DNA of 64,000 nucleotides from Dichotomocladium elegans (lineage: Eukaryota > Mucoromycota > Mucoromycetes > Mucorales > Lichtheimiaceae), in NCBI GenBank assembly GCA_025716815.1, contig JAIXMN010000020.1, positions 620,001-684,000 of the forward strand, read 5' to 3'. Shown here piece by piece: positions 1,974-35,106 of the stretch; the stretch's first letter is position 1; every line of letters starts with the position of its first letter. Made by a program: the position numbers and the translations under genes. Below the pieces are notes generated by a model. It ran no database searches and had not been told where the DNA came from. It saw nothing but the letters and a program-made list of their open reading frames with translations.

Positions 1974-2633
1974 ATGTTGAGTGAGTCGCAATCGTTGTCC
2001 CTTCGTTATTTTACTGACGCCTTTCAATGACAGATCACGACTCTGATGATGTTGTAGAAGAATTTGCTCGCCAATTAGAGCAAGGTGAGTTTCCAACCTG
2101 TCGATCGTGTCAAAAAAAAAAAGGGAAAACTCAAGCCAAATCAGTGTGCGCGATCACACCGATACTACACCAAGCCAAAGTTGATAATGATAGCGATGGG
2201 AGCATATCTGGAGACGAGGGGGATGAGATTCCTTTCGGCTATGAGCAACTGCCACAGGACGAGGACGAAGGGGTGTCGTTGTCCGACGAAACTGAGGAGA
2301 CCAGCAGTCTCCCCATGGAGCATTTCGAGGCACCATCACTTGCGCTCCCGCCTGCGGAGGAAATCTCAGAAGGTTTTCTTTTTTTCGCAAATGAATTTTG
2401 ATTTGCATTTTCATTGGCGCTTATTGTACAACAATAGACACAGCGAACACAATCCGGACTATTATGAGCACAATCCAACTATCCGACCGAGGCATACCTG
2501 GTAAGAGGGGGAGCTACGAAGAGGATAAACAGACGTGACGTTAAGTTTTGAGGTAGAATGGGCAAGAAACATTCCCGAATCCATGTGGCTGCCGAAATTA
2601 AACTCGAGTGATAGCAGCACCACCAAAGATTGA
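1974..2633 (+). CDS. MEA1 (male-enhanced antigen 1)-like small acidic protein
   Basis: Five-exon model 1974-1980, 2034-2084, 2181-2372, 2438-2500, 2533-2633; exon lengths add to 414 nt (137 residues plus stop), and phases match at every junction. The product is acidic, with a GYEQLPQDEDEG segment in the middle and a C-terminal block with TIRTIMSTIQLSDRGIP followed by VEWARNIPESMW. That order (Tyr-rich acidic segment, then hydrophobic helix, then a P-x-WA-x-x-I motif) is the one known from animal MEA1 proteins. Molecular function of the family is poorly known. The first exon codes for only two complete codons, and the last intron would be just 32 nt, unusually short. Either the last junction is wrong or this is a real mini-intron. 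The homology call is from recalled motif order, so moderate. Confidence 0.5.
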
Positions 2634-2782
2634 CATCGTGGTTTCCTCCTTAAAATGGACGCGCTGAATTTTGTGACCCTTGTCCCCTTTCCTTACTTTA
2701 CCATTGCACTGTTCTCTCCCCGCCCCCCACGCCTTCGCTCTTCACCCTCCACCTTGTACCGTTTGTTATATTGTACTAGCTC

Positions 2783-3286
2783 ATGGAGCAAAATGAACGG
2801 CGAGCGCCCATCGCTACTGACAGTACATCGTCATATTCGCCTTCGAGCAACGAATCAAATGCATATGTTTCCTCCCCGTTCAGCACCTTCGGCATGCTAC
2901 CGCACAATGCAGATCCAACCAACCCCTTTGCACTAACACACACTGAATCTGGGCATATGCTCACCCCTGCACCATTCAAATACCCACCATCATCTGTTAT
3001 TCGCTTTGCTTCCAAAAACACCTCTCATCGACCGGAATCATTAGAGCAATTTGATTTTGGTTCACTGAGCTCACACAACAACGATCCCATCAAAGAGCAA
3101 CAACAGATTCAACCAGTTACTGATACAAGCAGCATTCATACCTCCAGCGAGGTTAATGAGACTATTCCACATTCTTCTGGTATAACAACCGTATCGAATA
3201 TGACAAGCGACGATAGCACAACCTTGATTGGCCAAGGGCGCAGTAATACCAATCCTCCTCCTCTGCTTCCAGAACAACAACAACAA

Positions 3287-4851: not shown

Positions 4852-5724
4852 ATGGCAAAAAAAACATTTGACGAAGACGGGAACGCCATCGGTGACGATC
4901 TCGATATTGCCAAGAAACCCCAGCCAGTAGTGCTGCCGGCAATGGAGTCCGAGTCGGACGATGACGAGGCTCCTGAGGCCGTTTCAACAAAGACCGCTCG
5001 ATCGGCCATACTCGAAGAGGAAAAGGCGAAGCGAGATCTCGCTGCACGGTAACGTGTTCTGTTTTTTTTTTTTGGCTTTGGATTATGCTTTGGCGATGAT
5101 GTTCATATAGTTGGTGGGTGGGTTGAAACAATCAAAAAAAAAAACCATAGGGCTGCAGCACTTGAAAAAGAGAAACGTCGATTGCGCGATCAGAAGCTCA
5201 AAGAGCAAAAGCAGAACAGCAAGCGACAAAAGAAAACAAAGGAGGTTGAAGTTGCCGAAGAGGAGGAGGAGAAGCAGGCGGCGGATGAAGAAACGGTAGC
5301 AGAACAGGAAGAAGAAGCAGACGAGAGCAGCAGCAGCAACAACGACAACAACACCAATACCACAGCGAGTGATACGCGGTTACTTCCAGCCGAGCTGCTC
5401 GCTCAGGCGGCTGCGGATGAGAAGAGCATCGGAAAACGTTCACATCTGACAGCAGCTGATTTTGAGCGGATGGAGAAGGAGGAACAGGAGAAAGCAGCGG
5501 AAAGGATGAACAAGAAGCGGAAAAGAGACGAACATCGTGTGGGCGAATATACCGTCAAGGTCATCAACAACCGTCCTCGCCCGGCACCCACAGACGCAAA
5601 GATTCTTAATTTCAAAAAACGGAGTCTCCAGCGCAAGGCCATCCCGCGAAAAGACGCCCTTCTTCAGAAGAGCCAACATAAAAAAAATATTGGCAAAGCA
5701 GCCCTCCAGTTCCACCGTCGCTAA
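4852..5724 (+). CDS. Bud21/Utp16-like nucleolar protein (U3 snoRNA-associated)
   Basis: Two exons, 4852-5048 and 5151-5724, total 771 nt (256 residues plus stop, in phase). The protein is acidic at the N-terminus (ESESDDDEAPE), then has a long charged coiled-coil-like stretch rich in Lys/Glu/Gln, and ends with a basic domain beginning EYTVKVINNRPRPAP and ending ALQFHRR. The C-terminal pattern (V-x-V followed by a basic, Pro-rich tail) recalls the U3_snoRNA_assoc family (Bud21/Utp16), a component of the small-subunit processome that helps process pre-18S rRNA in the nucleolus. The match is to a short motif only, so other small nucleolar proteins (for example NOL7-like) remain possible. The gene converges with the Rpn14-like gene, with only 48 bp between the stop codons. 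Confidence 0.45.
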
Positions 5725-5772: not shown

Positions 5773-7748
5773 TCAATAAACCAGAACATTCCCTGAACGA
5801 TTGCAGCATATTATTTGCTGCTGGTGATGATTGCTGGCCTCGCTGCTCGGGATGGCTTTCATACTATGGACTGTCTCGAGTTCGTTACCACTGTACTCTG
5901 CTGCGAGTTTGAGACTGCTTGTGTTCTTCAGGACTGGCAAGATGGGGCTTGTGTGATATACGCTTCCATCGGCTAGACGAGTGAAATAAGTGATGCATTC
6001 GCCGAACCTGTAGCTCCAATTCCTCCCCCCCCCCATTTCCCTGATTACCATTAGCGACAAACACAACCAGCTCGCCGTTTTGATCAAGTTTGATGAGTAA
6101 CCCGGTAACGGCATGCTCGGATCTCTGCCATTGGAGACGTGGGGCGGTCAAGTCTTCCAACGAAAATACGCGGACCGTCCCCCTTTCATCACCCGTCACA
6201 ATAAGACCCGAACCACTGTGGTGGGCAACCGCAGATGCAGACGTGCTGGTTGGATGGGTTGCAAACATCTACGTCCTTCTTTGTCAGCAGAGCCTACCTC
6301 TCTCTTACGCCCCTTTGTCCTAGCAAAGCAACCCTACTTCTTCTTTCGTGCCCAGATGAATTCCTTTCACGCTTCCGTCACCAAGTGCGGCAATCACTAG
6401 CTTATCTGCCGTCTCGAATTCTCGCTCATCTGCTGACCAAAACCTCTTTTTCGTTCAGATCCTGTCGGAAAAACTCGCCTTTAATGTCTTACCAAGATTG
6501 TCCTGAGAAGCGGATGTGGATCCGGCCGGAAGTGTATCAAGCAACATCTTTGTCACAGGCGACTTGTATTGAGCAAGAACATGAATCGTTTCGCTCGAAC
6601 CACAATGCCATAAGCGAATTGTCCCGTCTCTGGATGACGCTAGAAAACACTGGTGTTATAAGGCAATGTTTGACTGATCCATATCTACTCACTGAGTACA
6701 TTTCTTCCCCTCCCGACTATGGCAGTATCTGTAATGGCTGTTGCGATAAACAAATAAGAAATGAGCTCAATTAATCAGAATGACCAATCTCTTTTACATG
6801 ATGTATGCCCACGAAGCGTCACGGGATTGCTTCCATCGAGAACAGACCAAATCTTCGCCTGAAAATCGGAACCACCGCTCAAGACAACTAGGATGCAAAA
6901 TGGGGTGGGGTGGGGGTTTGGAGAGGCGAACAAAAAAAAATCAGTACGGTAGGATCCCATAAATACCGTTCATATTACTATACCTTGGTTGCTTGGAAAA
7001 AACTGAACTGTCGTTACATCGGCAAGGTGACCCTCCAGCATTCTCTACAAGGGGTGGGAAGGGGGGAAACCAAGAAGAGCAGCAGTCTCTCACCTTCAGC
7101 TTTCCGCTGAGAAACCGGTAAGGAGAACAATGGGAATTACCTCGCATTTGCCGTCGTTCAATTTGCCAAGGATAATACGCTTGTCCTGAGCAAGTGCATA
7201 AAGTTCTCCGTCCGAGGTAAGATCGATGGCTACAGCCTTGATATGATCAAGATGAGCCGTAAGCCCGCATCCTTTTTTTTTTTTTTGCTTTTTTTGTTTT
7301 GGCTACTCACTGGCCTATTGTCCACCGAGTTGAATCCCAATTTGGGAGCATAGATCATAACATCATGCAGTCCGAGAGCTGCGCAGTGGACTATGAATGA
7401 TCGCTGGAGACACAGAGAGCCGAATTACGTCAGCCGAGGTCCCGCATCATTTGACGGCTTCACCTACAGAGTTGATATATTTCACCGTAACACCCTGCTG
7501 CCCCTCCAGTTCGACCGATCGCGGCTGATTACCACGCTTGACAAGCACAGTGCCATGGACAGATTCCGAATCTGTCATTGGTGCGACGAACACTTCAGCC
7601 CAGACACGCCGTCTCGACACGAAAAACACACGTTACCTTTTTTATAGCATGACACCCAGAACATGCCCTCGAGAGCAGTCTGGCCGACCACATCGCGCAC
7701 AACTTCATGCCAGTCTGGCTGAACGGAAATTTGAGGGAATTGCTGCAT
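5773..7748 (-). CDS. RPN14: PAAF1/Rpn14-like WD40 proteasome-assembly chaperone
   Basis: WD40 propeller that binds the AAA-ATPase ring of the 19S regulatory particle during proteasome assembly. Start is placed at 7748 (MQQFPQISVQPDWHEV). Successive minus-strand exons give an N-terminal domain (WHEVVRDVVGQTALEGMFWV, then VWAEVFVAPMTDSESVHG), LTAHLDHIKAVAIDL, GHLADVTTVQFFPSNQ, LSGGSDFQAKIWS, AITDTAIVGRGRNVLS, a GTIRLWHCGSSE blade, ATHPTSTSASAVA and VTGDERGTVRVFSLED. The SGG-D-KIW blade followed by RGRNV...SRDGT-RLW is the characteristic order of PAAF1/Rpn14. At least eight introns are needed. The junction after WVSCYKK is not resolved. The 3' end nearly touches the convergent Utp16-like gene. 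Confidence 0.8.
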
Positions 7749-25756: not shown

Positions 25757-27843
25757 TCATGTCGCCCCCCATTGATGAGCGGTATTCCAAAGCGTAAAGA
25801 ACATCACGCCTGTGCCAAAGACAATAAGGATCTGATCAATAATTTTACAGAACCCCTTCGTAGTGGACAGTTGCAAATGGAACAAAGGCGGGAATATTAA
25901 ACTCAAAGGACCTAGGCACATTGTATTACGTTATTAGCATTCGTACTACAGCTTATTTAGGGCACTTACAGCAGCAGATGGATCCGATCAAGCTAATGAA
26001 TTTGTCCAAGTCATTAGCACCTCCCCAAGCTATCAGAGCACCGACAATGACCACGCCGAAGCGCACTGCATTTTTTTGCCATTTGATGCTAGTGCTGTGC
26101 TTTCCCGTCCGCTCGCCAAATATGCCATGTTCGATAATCCGAATGGTAGGAAACAGGCAGAGCGGATTCGTCAGATGCACTGCAAGAGCATAGCCCAGTT
26201 GCACAACGCTTGCTAACGGTCCTTCAGGAAGATTAAGTAATGCCACTGTCTTGACGTCGCTACCGAAAGCAACATATCCCATTGCCCCCACAGCGCATAG
26301 AATGGTTGCTACTATGACCATCACAATCGTCAGCACCATTGGGAACTTTTCGGGTTTCTCCATCGCATCCCGGATAGGGATAATGAGTCCTGAAACAAAA
26401 TGGAGGTAAACACTTGGAAATATGCAGCCTTTGTCCTTATTAATCTATACCGATGCCTTCAAAGGAGTATACCGCCGTGCCGACAAATACTGGATACATA
26501 TTGGGATTAAACCACCATTCCATGTTGGGTCCCGCGTGTACCCCCGTGTCGCCTCCGGAAAAAAAAATTTGGTATATATCGCACGCCAAGATGATAAACA
26601 AGCCAGTTACAATCAACACATCGGCAAACAGAGCTGCAGGCGAAAGTTTGGAAATGTTGCGAATAAGCACGAGTGGCATTAGCGACAGGGCGATGAGCAT
26701 TAGTACCCGTGTCTCTTCCAAGTCGATGGCATGGGATGTCAAACTCCTGACCGCCTGTACGACGTTTTCAACTATGAAGATGGTACCTCCACAATTGAAG
26801 CCGAGCTGGCAAATAAGGGTAGGTTAGCGCTGTGGGATCATAATAATCCAAATCCACCCGTAAGACCGCACCTGTGATATAGCAATGGAAAACAGAACGG
26901 CATGCCGCATCGACGGTCCGTAGAGTGCACCTCCAATGTCGCCATAGCTTCCCGCAATTTGCTCCTTGCACTTAAGCAGTAAAAGGAAGCAGTATAATGA
27001 CACAAACCCCATGAAATAAAGGATGCTCATCGAAAACGCAAGACCACCGTTTGAGAATGCTTTCGGTAGAAATAGGATTCCGCTGCTAATGAATGCCTTG
27101 AAGAGTAAAAAGCCGGACTTGAGCAGATTTGCCTTGTGTTTACCGTCTGCTTCTGATGATTGCGGTGCCTTTTTCTGTGGTTTTCGGTATACTGAGAGCA
27201 AAGGCTGGATCTCCTCATCTTCTCCTTCTGAGTCGGATAGGTCTTCACCCGCGAACCGGTCTATGACGGATGTGATGGCAAGATATTCAAGAAAATGCCG
27301 AGTCTGAACACCGCGCATCGATCTGATTGTGCTGGACAAAGCGACAGATTCCAAAGCTGTGCAAGAATCGCATGAAGAAGTCGATGGCGTTCTAAAAAGC
27401 GCTAGTTCTTCATTCTGAAGGTTGCCGGCGCGTGTGGGTTGTTGTTGTTGCTGTTGCTGACGATTGATGTAGAAGTGTCTCCGAAATCCACCGGGCTTGT
27501 CTAGGTTCTCGTAAACAAAATCTGACGGTCCTGCGCCCTTTTGCTCCATTGCTCCTGCCTTTGAGCAGATATCACCGCTTGATTTACTGCGATACATAAC
27601 GCTGGCGGTACGCAAGCTGTTTGCGTGATTATATATATCATGTGTAACTGAAGTACCAGGAAGGTGATATGGAATTGGAATGACTTCATCTCCGTCTGGA
27701 GATCTGGGCTGGCGATCGTGATCTGGTCCTTCCACGTCGTCATTGTCATGACTGGGGGATTCAATGATAAGATGTTGCTGCACCAAGGTGGCGATGCGCT
27801 TATCGGGTATGAATCCTGGGCGTTGATTTGAAGCCGACTGCAT
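25757..27843 (-). CDS. Avt3/Avt4-like vacuolar amino-acid transporter
   Basis: AAAP-family permease that exports amino acids from the vacuole. The long first exon (27843 down to 26,870) encodes a ~290-residue cytosolic N-tail (QRPGFIPDKRIATLVQQHLI, a polyQ stretch, FLEYLAITSVIDRFAGEDLS, acidic SDSEGEDEE) followed by KANLLKSGFLLFKAFISSGI, LFLPKAFSNGGLAFS and AGSYGDIGGALYGP, the family's start of the core. Later exons supply IYSFEGIGI, LTIVMVIVATILCAVGAMGY, NLPEGPLASVVQLGYALAVH, LCLFPTIRIIEHGIFG and a last exon ending TLWNTAHQWGAT (stop at 25,757). Eleven membrane segments are expected. An earlier in-frame ATG exists at 28,059, but 27,843 is preferred because the alternative extension would run into the divergent gene's promoter. 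Confidence 0.9.
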
Positions 27844-27980
27844 TCTAATGACCGTTTTGAGCAGAAAAGAAAAGGAACTTTTTAAGCTAAGCTGTGAGAC
27901 ACGTTGGGGGGTGGAGTGTGCGGGGTTGCTTGTACGCATGACACTGTGTAACACCTGTTTTTCCGAAATTTCTGCTATCG

Positions 27981-30900
27981 ATGATGCATGGGCAACCTGA
28001 GGAAAAAGGACTCCCAATCTGGGACCTGCAAACCTGCAATACATACACGGATGTAGCAAACTCTCTTTTTTCCGCTATTCAACGAGGAATATGCGTTTTT
28101 ATTGATGATGACGTTGCTAGAGGTGATGTCTTTAGATATTGCGCATTACAGTGCTTCCAACAAGTAATGTCACAGCCAATCAAAATCAATGTCACTGGTC
28201 AATTAAAAATGATGTCATTGGCTAGCCACAATTGATGTCACAGGCCAAAAGTCATTTGGTTAGAAATCACACCGCGATTCTTGGCACCCGAAAAATATAA
28301 CAGAGTAGAGAAACGTCATTTCAGAGGCTTCGTTTCGCATTCTTACAAGTGCTGGGATAAATGTCGAAATAAAAGAATCCATATAATAATCTCCATTGAC
28401 TTCAACTCCAATAGAATTCAGGTAAGTAACATGCAATGTTTTGTTTTTGAAAATATGAAAAACTGGAGTGTATGTTTTTTATTTCATTAACTAACATGAA
28501 CTTTAGACAGTATCTTTGTGAGCCATTTCAAATTTGAAGTATCGCCCAGTTTAAGCTCGAGTGTCATTCAAAACTGGGTTTTCCAAGTCCTTGATCTACG
28601 AATTGATGCTCAAAATACATGACTCTTTGCAATCAAATCCAAAACACACTAGAAATTTTTGATCGCTAGATCTTTTAGAGTGTTACCATAGTCCAAAACA
28701 TTCCGTTTATATATATATATTATTTTATTTCAAGTCGCACGTAGCACGGTGATTCACTCATTGGCTCTTGAAAACTCAGACACATCATTGACACGAAATG
28801 AATTGCTGACAGCATCAGGTTCTTGGCGTGTGCGAATGTATACGAAGGAATCCATTTACAGTAATCAAAGTGTAGGGCGCACAAGCGGTGGTGATTTTGG
28901 GTTGAATCAATCAAAGAGTAAAGGGAGGGATGAGTGGGACCCCGTTTCTCTTGCCTGGGTGGGTGTCACGGACGGGTCGGCACAAGTGCTAAAAGATATC
29001 AGAGAGTATCATCAATGTGGGGATATTTTTCAAGGACACGAATGTTGTTAGTTCTTCAAAGATAGAGGAAATGTAAGCTGTGCAAATTTGTTGCATCATA
29101 TAGATTCCATCGTGGCGGAGGCGCGTCTGAAAGAAAACCATGCCTCTGGAAGGTCAGAAAGGCTTCCAATAAATTGGTATCAATGGTATCTTTTGTTAGC
29201 GTTGCCAAACGCAAAAGATCGTGACATAGCGCGTGGTTATCGATGGTGGGCCTGTAATTGTGACCTCTCTATATCCAAGACTGGATCCGAAGTCGCAGTG
29301 CCGTAGCTTGGAGATTGCGCCATCAGGACACATCTCACCATTTTTGCATTCTTACGAATACCACAAGATCTATGATTGAAATGAAAACCACGAATTAGTT
29401 TGCGTGTTTACCAAAGCATACATTTGACAAGAGGAAGAAGGTCACTTCCCACTCCCAGCTGGGACGCAATTGCCATAGCAAATGCTATCAAGGCTAGGAT
29501 ATTTCTCCGGCGAAGGGCAGGGTTCAACTGGACCTTCTTCCCATGATGACAAGCTACGGCTCCCACTCCCAGCTGGGACGCAATTGCTATAGCAAATGCT
29601 ATCAAGGCTAGGATATTTCTCCGGCGAAGGGCAGGGTTCATATGTAGACTTGTCATCATGCTTTTCTTGCAAGATTATAAAACCAATAATATGACTTATC
29701 TTTTGGGAAAGAACGAAAAAAAGGAAACCCCCAGCTTTTTAGGGAGGTTGAAGATATTTCCATCCAATCAGCATTAAACAGCTAGGGTATTCCTACTTTT
29801 CCTTTTTTTCCTACTATCAATTACATTCATTGTGAATGACAATAGAAATATTTCCAAAACTCTTTTGACTACAAAGTAAAAAATAAACTTTATGTGAAAG
29901 GTAAAAATCTTATATCTTCTTGAGTGCTTGATTGTGTACATTTATTTTTTTTCCTAATTGATAGATTTTTGGGCCGCTGATCCATGCAACTGGACTATCA
30001 CAAATTATTTATCGAAACCGGTTGCCCGGGATCCTGCAATTTCCAGGCGTAACGCATCCAATCGACTCATTAATGACACGACGATAGTAAAAAACCACGT
30101 GGTAGTAGGCACTATCGCTGAGACAATGTCAAGTGCTATGTTTTCTTTCAAGCAGGTCGGTTAAATTCATTTTTCAGCTATGACTATTGTTGGCAATAAC
30201 CAGTCTTCACAGAATTCTAGGGCTAAAGAAGCATTTAATACATTTCTTGTCAGCCATGCTAGTCAAGTATCTCAAGAGTCGCTGAAGTATGGAGTTCAAA
30301 AGGTTATGTGAATTCTACATTTTTACGTATGCGTTCGGTACGTTATACACGGAACCCACCACTGTACCTAACGATCTTGTAGACCAGGCTGAAAAGCGTT
30401 ATGGCGGAGCAAGTCGTCAATGAAGAAGAAAAGGAAAATGATAGAAAACGACAAGTTGAAAGCAGGTACGAAGATGATTCCGCTCACTACGTCAGTGCAA
30501 GCAAAAGGAGGGAAATCACGGTAATCGATGACAATCAATCCGGTGAACAAGACGATGATGGTGATGATCAAAAGGTCGATATTTGGGAAGAATGGAAACA
30601 TTTCCTCAACGATCAAGAAAATAAAAAATATTTCATGCAGCTGAGGTAAAAAAAATATTGAAATGTAACAATTACCCGTGCTTACGCATATTATGTTAGT
30701 CCTGAAATGCATAATGTGATCTGGTGCGGGAAGCTAGTGCGACGTAGAGTCTGCTTACCTCCTGACCTATATGCCAAGCTAAACCAGGAAGTGTCGTCAG
30801 TCACGATACAGGATATAAGCCCATGCCTTGCCGAGATGTGCATGACCATATTTGATGCGGTATGCCGTTTTTTGCAATGTAATTAGGAAATCGAAAAACT

Positions 30901-33900
30901 AACACCACCTAATATCATAGGAATCCAACATTGAAATGCAAAGCTGTGTTGAGCAATTGAACCACGTTGTGCTAGACGATCCAATCCTTGTTGCAGAAAA
31001 AAAGCTGATTGTCGATATTTGTGGCACGTTGTAAGTAAAGGTAGTAAGACTTGAATACGTACTCAATTGACATTGCTTGTTTAGTAGTGACTATATATAT
31101 GACAATTGTGGTACCGACGTGCTTCGAAAGTCTGAATCATGCTATCGATCATACTTGTTTGACAACTGTATGAAGGCCACTACCAAATATTTGCGCAACA
31201 ACAACCACAACGTTACTTTTTTTCCTGGAGAAATTGAACTCGATGCCATGACCATCCAACTCAAGCAGAAAGGAATGAATGACCGCCGATATAAGTACAA
31301 TGCTGATGGAACACTCAGAGCTAATGATCTGTCTTCGCCTGAAATTCTTTTGACTGAAGTTTCCTCTGGCTATGGCTCCAATGATGCTGGTAAAATAAGC
31401 TTTGACCATTATAAAGCTATGTTTGGTATGCTGGCAATGATGCGAACCCTGGCGCAGTTATATGATAAAGCTTCGTTCAAGACTTTCTCAAATGTCAAGA
31501 TCCATTTTCTTCATGCTCATGGTAAGTGAGTCAGGATATATCACGTTTAATTACGTATGGTGCGTTGTGTGAGCAATTGAATTTTTCTTTACGCAGGCCA
31601 TTCCATCAGACATTGGTCCATGTCAACACAGGCGCCTGGTCTCTATATTATGAACAAAGAGCAGAGAGTCGATGTTCCTATTAGGTTTTCTGAAAAGGAT
31701 ATTACTCTCCTGCCGTTTATCTGCTTCTTTAAAACACTTGCTGTAAGCTGAATTGTACAAGAGCATGATTTAAATAGTGAAAGAACATGTTATCTCACAG
31801 GATTATGTTTGGAAATGTAGGCTGCTTGCGAAGAAACTTTATCCGTGCTGAAGGAACTCAAGAAAGAACATAAAACCATCTTGCGATCAAAGGACAAGGA
31901 ACGAGAAAACCTTTGCAGAATCGTGGATCCAGTCATTATTCGCCTGAATGAAGGAAAACATGCCAGTATTGTAGCAGAACATGGCCCAGCGAGCGTACCC
32001 AGCAGCCCAATATACGAGTAAGTCCCATCAATGATTACTCCATCCCACAGCTTGATTCCCAAATTCTATGACAATAATAAACATATTGGTCTATATTATT
32101 AACGTGACCTACTTGTTGAGTATATTAGCGGACATCTCCAGGAAATGCAACAAGCATTCTGTATTTTGAGATCACTTAAAGAGAGTGCTTGAAATGCGTG
32201 ATCTGAATTCCCTTGCTCAGTCCTAGGTGAGGCTGTTTAATGCTGATTGGGTGGAAATATCTTCAACCTCCCTAAAAAGCTGGGGGTTTCCTTTTTTTCG
32301 TTCTTTCCCAAAAGATAAGTCATATTATTGGTTTTATAATCTTGCAAGAAAAGCATGATGACAAGTCTACATATGAACCCTGCCCTTCGCCGGAGAAATA
32401 TCCTAGCCTTGATAGCATTTGCTATAGCAATTGCGTCCCAGCTGGGAGTGGGAGCCGTAGCTTGTCATCATGGGAAGAAGGTCCAGTTGAACCCTGCCCT
32501 TCGCCGGAGAAATATCCTAGCCTTGATAGCATTTGCTATGGCAATTGCGTCCCAGCTGGGAGTGGGAAGTGACCTTCTTCCTCTTGTCAAATGTATGCTT
32601 TGGTAAACACGCAAACTAATTCGTGGTTTTCATTTCAATCATAGATCTTGTGGTATTCGTAAGAATGCAAAAATGGTGAGATGTGTCCTGATGGCGCAAT
32701 CTCCAAGCTACGGCACTGCGACTTCGGATCCAGTCTTGGATATAGAGAGGTCACAATTACAGGCCCACCATCGATAACCACGCGCTATGTCACGATCTTT
32801 TGCGTTTGGCAACGCTAACAAAAGATACCATTGATACCAATTTATTGGAAGCCTTTCTGACCTTCTAGATGCATGGTTTTCTTTCAGACGCGCCTCCGCC
32901 ACGATGGAATCTATATGATGCAACAAATTTGCACAGCTTACATTTCCTCTATCTTTGAAAGAACTAACCACATCCGTGTCCTTGAAAAATATCCCCACAT
33001 TGATGATCCTCTCTGATATCTTTTAGCACTTGTGCCGATCTGTCCGTGACACCCACTCAGGCAAGAGAAACGGGGTCCCACTCATCGCTTCCTTTACTCT
33101 TTGATTGATTCAACCCAAAATCACCACCGCTTGTGCGCCCTACACTTTGATTAAATGGATTCCTCCGTATACATTCCCACACGCCAAGAACCTGATGCTA
33201 TCAGCAATTCATTTCGTGTCAATGATGTGTCTGAGTTTTCAAGAGGCAACGAGTGAATCACCGTGCTACGTGCGACTTGAAATAAAATAATATATATATA
33301 TAGATAAACGGAATGTTTTGGACTATGGTAACACTCTAAAAGATCTAGCGATCAAAAATTTCTGGTGTGTTTTGGATTTGATTGCAAAGAGCCATGTATT
33401 TTGAGCATCAAATCGTAGATCAAGGACTTGGAAAACCCAGTTTTGAATGACACTCGAGCTTAAACCGGGCGATACTTCAAATTTGAAATGGCTCACAAAG
33501 ATACTGTCTAAAGTTCATGTTAGTTAATGAAATAAAAAACATACACTCCAGTTTTTCATATTTTCAAAAACAAAACATTGCATGTTACTTACCTGAATTC
33601 TATTGGAGTTGAAGTCAATGGAGATTATTATATGGATTCTTTATTTCGACATTTATCCCAGCACTTGTAAGAATGCGAAACGAAGCCTCTGAAATGACGT
33701 TTCTCTACTCTGTTATATTTTTCGGGTGCCAAGAATCGCGGTGTGATTTCTAACCAAATGACTTTTGGCCTGTGACATCAATTGTGGCTAGCCAATGACA
33801 TCATTTTTAATTGACCAGTGACATTGATTTTGATTGGCTGTGTATGTTATACTGCTTGTCAGATGATTTGTCGCCTCCCTTTCCGCAGATGGCCAGAAAT

Positions 33901-34107: not shown

Positions 34108-34280
34108 TGGCGCGAAATGAAGTGCTGCAAGGAACTTTGCCCAATGATTTCAGCCGGCGACTGAAATTAATACAATAAACTGCAAGAATGTTGTTCCGCG
34201 GAATATATGCCGAAAGCTTTAATAAAAAAAATTGCTTCCTTTTCCCAGGTTCTCCCGTAGACTTGAACACATTCTGGATA

Positions 34281-35106
34281 ATGAACAACCAACATCACAT
34301 GCTGCGGGCCCGAGCATTCGCCTTCGATCTTGACGGCACTCTCATTGACACGACCCCTCTCGTGGAGAAGCATTGGCGTAATTTCGCCATGGAGCATAAT
34401 TTAGATCCTGAAAAGGTAAGCCATGTGAAAATAAAGATCGCTTCTTGCAAAGCGCATGCCGAGTGTTCAAAGCCGAAAATTAAAAGAAAATAGATCTTAG
34501 CCACCTCTCATGGGCGACGTACTATTGAGACGCTTTCACAGTGGACACCAGATAACGCCACACAACAAGCTGCGGAGGCTTTCGAGCGTAAGCTTGCGGA
34601 ACAGTCGGAAGGCGTCTCCATTCTTCCTGGTGTCCAATCACTCTTGGATGAAATTTCGTCACAAAAATGGGGCATCTGCACAGCAGGAAACAAACACATG
34701 GCCACCATGCGTCTAACTCAGGTTGGACTGCCCGTGCCATCCGCTTTGGTGACGGGTGACACCGTAAGTAGATCCCTGTCTTTTCCCCAAATACCAGCAA
34801 TGATAGGTCTCATCCGATCGCACCATCCCACAGGTTAGCCGGGGAAAGCCAGATCCTGAAAGCTACCTAGCGCTGGCAACAAAACTCGGTGTAGAGCCAA
34901 AATGGTGTCTCGTGTTCGAGGATGCGCCTGCTGGTGTGCGTTCCGCACGCGCAGCCGGTATGAACTGCGTTGCTTGTACCACTACTCACACCGTCGATCA
35001 GCTCAAGGAGGCTGGTGCGACTTATGTAGTCAGCCATCTGACAGATGTTGATATCAGCATCCTTTCTGATGGCACATACGACGTCTTAGTGTCCAACCCC
35101 CTATAG
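34281..35106 (+). CDS. HAD-superfamily phosphatase (glycerol-phosphatase/DOG-like)
   Basis: Exons 34,281-34,415, 34,494-34,763 and 34,834-35,106 total 678 nt, 225 residues in phase. HAD motif I is FAFDLDGTLIDT (both catalytic Asp), cap domain VEKHWRNFAMEHNLDP, motif II ICTAGNKHMA (Thr), motif III Lys in SRGKPDPESYLALA, motif IV VFEDAPAGVRSARAAGM. Length and motif order match yeast Gpp1/Dog2-like small sugar/glycerol-phosphate phosphatases. The exact substrate is not decidable. A Met further upstream (34,188) exists in the same frame but MNNQHHML is preferred because the extension lacks conservation. Confidence 0.9.

Follow-up and report, generated by a model that had tools for sequence, protein, structure and literature searches.

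A transposase-less fold-back element of the Tc1/mariner lineage in Dichotomocladium elegans and its relatives with paired inverted transposase arms

A 64-kb stretch of the Dichotomocladium elegans genome (hereafter the window; C36:620001-684000, in a 39.4-Mb genome of 122 contigs) contains two long inverted arms around a single large gene, and the question was to which kind of mobile element this locus belongs. The preliminary description had placed its ends exactly at CACAGCC/GGCTGTG, had seen in it none of the common types such as Tc1/mariner, and had considered a new superfamily. The present analysis indicates that the window element is very probably a non-autonomous fold-back derivative of the Tc1/mariner (IS630/DD34E) lineage, mobilised in trans, with arms kept alike by copying or remaking. 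The arms, the shared ends, the TA flanks, the transposase of the relatives, the identical deletion in both window arms and the kinship of arms within elements are established. The searches for related loci and paired arms were made within this one genome, and other loci are named by contig (C31 = L009, C68 = L010, C90 = L037).

The arms were reverse complements with 98.1% identity over 1617 columns (20 mismatches and 11 indel columns), in agreement with the 1.6 kb of reverse complementarity first noticed. At E < 1e-10, with low-complexity sequence masked and repeats inside the arms set aside, the window contained no second pair of inverted repeats. Elsewhere in the genome, the 2449-bp centre between them had no DNA match at E ≤ 0.001. 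Moreover, the mismatches were clustered: the longest run without a mismatch was 615 bp, a length reached in 0.175% of 20000 trials of random placement, which is expected if portions of the arms overwrite each other.

At the left end, homology to other elements extended past the arm start to the TA at 28147-28148. With this TA, the left terminus reads TA followed by CAGTGCTTCCAA, and the first element base is 28149, 22 bp outward of the arm start. The corresponding terminal 22 bp of the right end were gone. The element therefore spans 28149-33842 (5694 bp), and CACAGCC/GGCTGTG had to be dropped as its ends: owing to the loss of one terminus, they are merely the point where the arms cease matching each other. 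The window copy is probably immobile now, its right terminus being cut off. The features of its ends and arms are as follows.

28147-28148, no strand: TA dinucleotide, the expected Tc1/mariner target site (from sequence; homology between different elements begins here, and no right-hand partner TA is assignable)
28149-28170, plus strand: true left terminus CAGTGCTTCCAACAAGTAATGT, 22 bp (from homology to other elements; absent at the right end)
28171-29782, plus strand: left arm (from the arm alignment and the inverted-repeat search)
32232-33842, minus strand: right arm, minus the terminal 22 bp (from the arm alignment and the end scan)

The window terminus was common to L009, L010, L012, L014, L052 and L062, with the homology beginning at TA. 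The start at TA followed by CAGTGCTTCCAACAAGTAATGT was the same in C31, C68, C2 and C79 and more diverged in C101 and C112, and TA was present at both ends of C31, C68, C101, C2 and C112. One of the end-search patterns included the TA, but the homology between elements begins at TA and a separate scan made no demand for it. Inverted terminal repeats of one family stood at both ends in the relatives. With up to 2 mismatches in 12 allowed, these ends were confined to the outer edges in C31 (7528 bp), C68 (5444 bp) and C101 (1726 bp), the last of which is palindromic over nearly all of its 1.73 kb.

In C31 and C68, the arms flanked by these ends are long, and each of them carries one inward-pointing transposase gene. 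The two transposase frames of C31 were nucleotide-identical, with 427 codons from ATG without a stop. The frames of C68 were interrupted, and the transposases of C68, C101 and C112 were broken or partial. The C31 transposase matched Pfam DDE_3 (PF13358) with an E value of 5.6e-30, carried an HTH_23 domain in addition, and had 34 residues separating the second D from the E (DD34E). It had 401 homologs at E ≤ 1e-30; among the 120 homologs listed, the named organisms belonged to genera such as Rhizopus, Mucor, Absidia, Rhizomucor and Phycomyces, all of which we take to be Mucorales, and no relatives were found in viral and prokaryotic contigs. The combination of DDE_3, HTH_23, DD34E spacing and TA flanks in the relatives places the lineage in the Tc1/mariner (IS630) superfamily. 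Its transposase is about 90 residues longer than that of classical Tc1. The exclusion of Tc1/mariner was thus overturned by relatives with the same ends, and the idea of a new superfamily was given up after C31 and C68 proved to carry the transposase in their arms. A Mutator/MULE identity was also ruled out, since the relatives encode DDE_3 and are TA-flanked; the hallmarks of MULEs are a MULE transposase and a target duplication of 8-11 bp. In addition, long tandem arrays with a GTAGGACACTTGAGAAAGAAGAT-type unit of about 20-25 bp, judged by eye, occur in both C31 arms (L009 at about 2340-3190, 5150-5440 and 6314-6600).

Compared with C31 and C68 at E ≤ 1e-4, the window arms matched only in the end of about 72 bp (with iteron shifts) and in the last 74-89 bp or so of the transposase gene. 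A transposase tail of about 30 codons remains in each arm, and the gene body is absent at the identical place in both.

28299-28387, plus strand: transposase relict, 3' end only, about residues 398-428 (from blastn/tblastn to the L009 and L010 transposases)
33627-33714, minus strand: transposase relict, with the same deletion as the left arm (from blastn/tblastn to the L009 and L010 transposases)

The shared deletion means that it is older than the formation of the arms, or that it was copied from arm to arm. The window element is a transposase-less fold-back derivative of Tc1/mariner, and it is presumably mobilised in trans. The structural class of fold-back elements fits, as very long inverted arms enclose a middle domain. 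The early suggestion of a passenger element or a non-autonomous element mobilised in trans is consistent with the short tail in each window arm and the open transposase of the same-ended C31.

The relationship of the arms was studied in a tree of nine 5'-end sequences: the left and right arms of C31, C68, C101 and C112, plus the unpaired end of C79; the window arms have too little in common with these to be included. Left and right arms were sisters in all four elements, with support of 100/100 in three and 98/96 in the fourth, and 5'-end identity was 87-100% within elements vs. 66-82% between elements. Such sister arms point to homogenisation within the element, or to an inverted duplication that formed anew repeatedly. 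Furthermore, the duplication in C31 extends into the passenger gene, so the inner limit of the duplication is not fixed.

To describe how frequent such pairs are, 119 transposase matches (98 of 2573 first-look candidates were scored) were merged to 97 loci, with same-strand matches less than 1.5 kb apart being joined. Neighbours less than 12 kb apart formed six convergent, three divergent and no direct pairs, and uniform random placement yielded a mean of 0.76 convergent pairs, with a maximum of 5 over 5000 trials. The arm identity was 99.9% for C31 (outer 1926 bp), 98.6% for C43:191k, 98.5% for C68:1483k, 97.9% for C68 and for C35:1585k, 97% for C90, 92.8% for C101, 92.5% for C43:321k/330k and 85% for C112. 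When the C101 5' end served as a DNA query (49 matches listed), nine loci were obtained at E < 1e-20, and by our own grouping these include five convergent pairs: C31, C68, C101:101k, C112 and C101:1101k (the right end of the last at E = 4e-13). Three further arrangements were observed. A mirror-image pair of equal-score transposase and serine-recombinase-like matches, about 16 kb apart, lies at C57:1597178-1615491; serine-recombinase-like matches form a mirror-image pair about 8 kb apart at C49:352554-363955; and a divergent (outward) equal-score transposase pair at C53:8744-12898 has the polarity opposite to that of the convergent pairs.

The gene between the window arms was reconstructed by hand splicing and contains 548 codons without a stop.

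29851-32021, plus strand: window passenger gene, nine exons and the stop at 32019-32021 (from hand splicing and homologs); exons 1-5 at 29851-29900, 29965-30155, 30213-30302, 30383-30645 and 30700-30859, and exons 6-9 at 30921-31030, 31085-31521, 31597-31742 and 31821-32018

As had been noticed before, this gene encodes no transposase. Its homologs were found in many Mucorales, with an approximate query that held intron residues at its start and one wrong junction residue. The predicted model of one homolog, P0005, resembles PD-(D/E)XK nucleases. In 20 sequences, E376 and K395 of P0005 were invariant and D359 was conserved in at least 90%; the K stands in the next helix and not in an ExK motif. 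The modelled fold suggests that the window passenger is probably a PD-(D/E)XK endonuclease or a descendant of one. The window protein had no match in Pfam, and the C31 passenger had none above the cut-off. Over one set of passenger homologs, Pfam gave scattered weak matches, each family in one of 20 members (best Bac_DnaA, E = 0.00045), and over the other set weak matches to CDC45 in 9 of 26 (best E = 0.0079) and NDC10_II in 2 of 26 (best E = 0.00058). A sequence search against solved structures returned only irrelevant matches, with best E values of 2.7 and 0.12.

The relatives differ in what they carry. In C90, inverted arms with transposase fragments enclose a passenger of the window type, together with the same pair of hairpin units that is described below. 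C31 has instead a gene with a serine-recombinase fold, for which the catalytic-domain fold was matched; the serine of YARKS was largely conserved, and DYAGLS stands at the position expected for DRLxR, the expected serine-recombinase motif. This gene, beside the Tc1/mariner transposase (L009:3474-4806), showed about 91% identity to proteins of Gilbertella, Zychaea and Rhizopus. Its horizontal transfer is possible. In L017, repeated stretches are inverted on either side of its passenger gene.

Two abutting hairpin units, both with conserved blocks, were recognised in each window arm.

29433-29541, no strand: hairpin unit A, left arm, with an 11-bp closing stem GGAAGAAGGTC/GACCTTCTTCC around the conserved block (limits read from the sequence)
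29542-29660, no strand: hairpin unit B, left arm, adjoining unit A, with a 12-bp closing stem CATGATGACAAG/CTTGTCATCATG (limits read from the sequence)
32354-32472, no strand: hairpin unit B, right-arm copy (from the arm alignment; covariance-model match 32372-32454)
32473-32581, no strand: hairpin unit A, right-arm copy (from the arm alignment; covariance-model match 32486-32568)

In C90, two abutting units stand upstream of the passenger gene (L037:30-275 = C90:750620-750865). At ≤3 mismatches, TTTCTCCGGCGnAGGGCAGGGTTCA occurred six times in the genome, always within the hairpin units of the window element and C90, and a covariance model run over 26 sequence sources recovered the same six units and one cut-off piece from an overlapping locus. 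The closing stems are unlike in sequence, yet each of the four distinct units has a complementary one, with lengths of 11, 12, 11 and 11, the last two including one mismatch each. Their scores were 11, 12, 9 and 9; shuffled flanks attained 9 in 3.8% of trials, and 3 of 12 cross-pairings scored 9-11, so the closing stems may be taken as modest evidence for hairpins. Single units folded no better than shuffles (z from -0.6 to +1.1), Rfam gave no match to a known RNA, and a tRNA search found none. A small arm peptide, MNPALRRRN..., which comes from a 114-bp tandem repeat and had sub-threshold Pfam matches only, was rejected as a conserved protein, since the conserved DNA blocks of C90 lie, by eye, in shifting frames. 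The conserved parts pair instead as the two abutting hairpins.

By eye, the window element is seated between two gene-like regions, a membrane-transporter-like gene on the minus strand (25953-28059) to the left and a HAD-type-phosphatase-like gene on the plus strand (about 34190-35000) to the right, and thus between their 5' sides.

The long inverted repeats of Bari2/3 elements measure about 250 nt, and in one variant from D. rhopaloa there are two long repeats identical to each other (PMC4877112). The present lineage shares the DDE_3 transposase, the DD34E spacing and the TA flanks with Tc1/mariner DD34E elements including Bari, whereas its arms are about 0.6-3 kb long, hold the transposase gene twice and enclose a central passenger gene. 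The Tetris paper reports the idea that the fold-back structure originated in different lineages via transposase loss and elongation of the terminal inverted repeats (PMC4079207). Galileo is P-related, and most fold-backs are called Mutator-related (PMC4168063, PMC4079207). Galileo (PMC4168063) and Tetris (PMC4079207) resemble the present elements in their very long inverted arms, tandem repeats in the arms and transposase-less copies; the elements studied here differ in belonging to Tc1/mariner and in having the transposase inside both arms. In KolobokP, the long terminal repeats are direct, the DDE transposase is encoded internally, and a His-Me finger nuclease accompanies it (PMC9587614). 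Its composite-like layout, with a second DNA enzyme adjoining a DDE transposase, is similar, but here each inverted arm has a transposase, and the passenger has a PD-(D/E)XK or serine-recombinase fold. In the maize Mu killer, part of a transposase gene is duplicated in inverted orientation, and a hairpin RNA made from it has been proposed to silence the family (PMC3440606). Mu killer is thus likewise an inverted transposase duplication, but a single rearranged locus, compared with a recurrent architecture here. In literature accessible without subscription (Repbase not covered), neither paired inverted transposase arms in Tc1/mariner nor the window passenger family was found described, and within that literature the layout of such arms around DNA-enzyme-like passengers appeared undescribed.

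The explanation that we favour is as follows. In the best-preserved members, both ends are inverted copies of a single unit of terminus and transposase gene (with or without a spacer), and two inward-facing transposase arms enclose the passenger gene. Transposase from another copy would bind the CAGTG ends and cut and paste the element into TA. The arms could be kept alike when one is copied from the other, by gene conversion or template-switching gap repair, or they could be remade repeatedly. By analogy with Mu killer, the inverted transposase pair might also silence itself through hairpin RNA (PMC3440606).

Several observations weigh against this explanation. The merging of same-strand matches less than 1.5 kb apart biases the count against direct pairs, and the three divergent pairs are present. 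Four of the nine 5'-end loci (C79, C57, C1 and C35) are unpaired single ends. At C43:191k, C35:1585k, C68:1483k and C90, one arm breaks off within the transposase gene and symmetric ends were not detected; in C2, a transposase fragment lies near just one of the ends. In the window, no TA duplication is readable, the right terminus being absent; the first passenger exon seems disrupted and, by eye, is without an in-frame ATG; and no intact copy or empty site of the element is at hand for comparison, so that we infer its movement. The scope of a single genome also counts here.

A more far-reaching form, which we regard as unlikely, holds that this is a self-maintaining twin-transposase fold-back. 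One arm would be rebuilt from the other in each round, the passenger enzymes, perhaps acting on the hairpins, would aid the copying, and double-stranded RNA would be directed against the element's own family.

Bacterial composites of the Tn5/Tn10 type consist of two inverted transposase-bearing arms around cargo. A composite origin, in which two Tc1/mariner copies inserted oppositely on either side of a gene and then became mobile as one unit, would account for the transposase in both arms and the gene between them, a layout that bacterial composite transposons have (PMC9587614). It is quite unlikely here. Each copy should have brought an inner terminus, and none is present in C31, C68, C101 or the window element (≤2 mismatches in 12), which means that neither arm is an insertion sequence in its own right. 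Moreover, the same kinds of passenger recur, and the arm limits differ relative to the passenger, the C31 arms entering it.

A recent inverted duplication or an assembly artefact around a single transposon copy, of no lasting significance, was judged very unlikely. Arms that are 97-99.9% alike at several loci, and some asymmetric pairs, would suit it. However, 31 columns differ between the window arms, and arm divergence is 7.5% at C43:321k/330k and 15% at C112, hence not all of the arms are new, and the pattern extends over more than six loci with two kinds of passenger between the arms and flanks unique on both sides. A palindromic assembly artefact, the refutation that the preliminary description had named beforehand, is argued against in the window by the unique flanks, the unmatched centre and the scattered arm differences. 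Finally, a new superfamily with CACAG ends, whose PD-(D/E)XK enzyme cuts by itself with no need of a Tc1/mariner transposase, finds some support in the nuclease-like fold of the passenger, its conserved D, E and K positions and its homologs in many Mucorales, but is most improbable, because the window ends are those of transposase-bearing elements, both window arms keep the transposase tail, and, of seven other distinct passenger-gene loci, one has a transposase match in its flanks and none has inverted arms (about 1.5 kb searched per side), indicating that the gene carries no CACAG arms itself.

The fold-back state has been attributed, in several groups of transposons, to loss of the transposase and lengthening of the arms. 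The Tc1/mariner lineage described here shows this state repeatedly; in C31 at the least, both arms have an open transposase gene, and the arms stay alike within each element. One genome thereby makes testable the origin and upkeep of long inverted arms, and self-silencing by RNA interference from an inverted transposase pair. In addition, two uncharacterised Mucorales protein families, one PD-(D/E)XK-like and one serine-recombinase-like, are tied to mobile elements.

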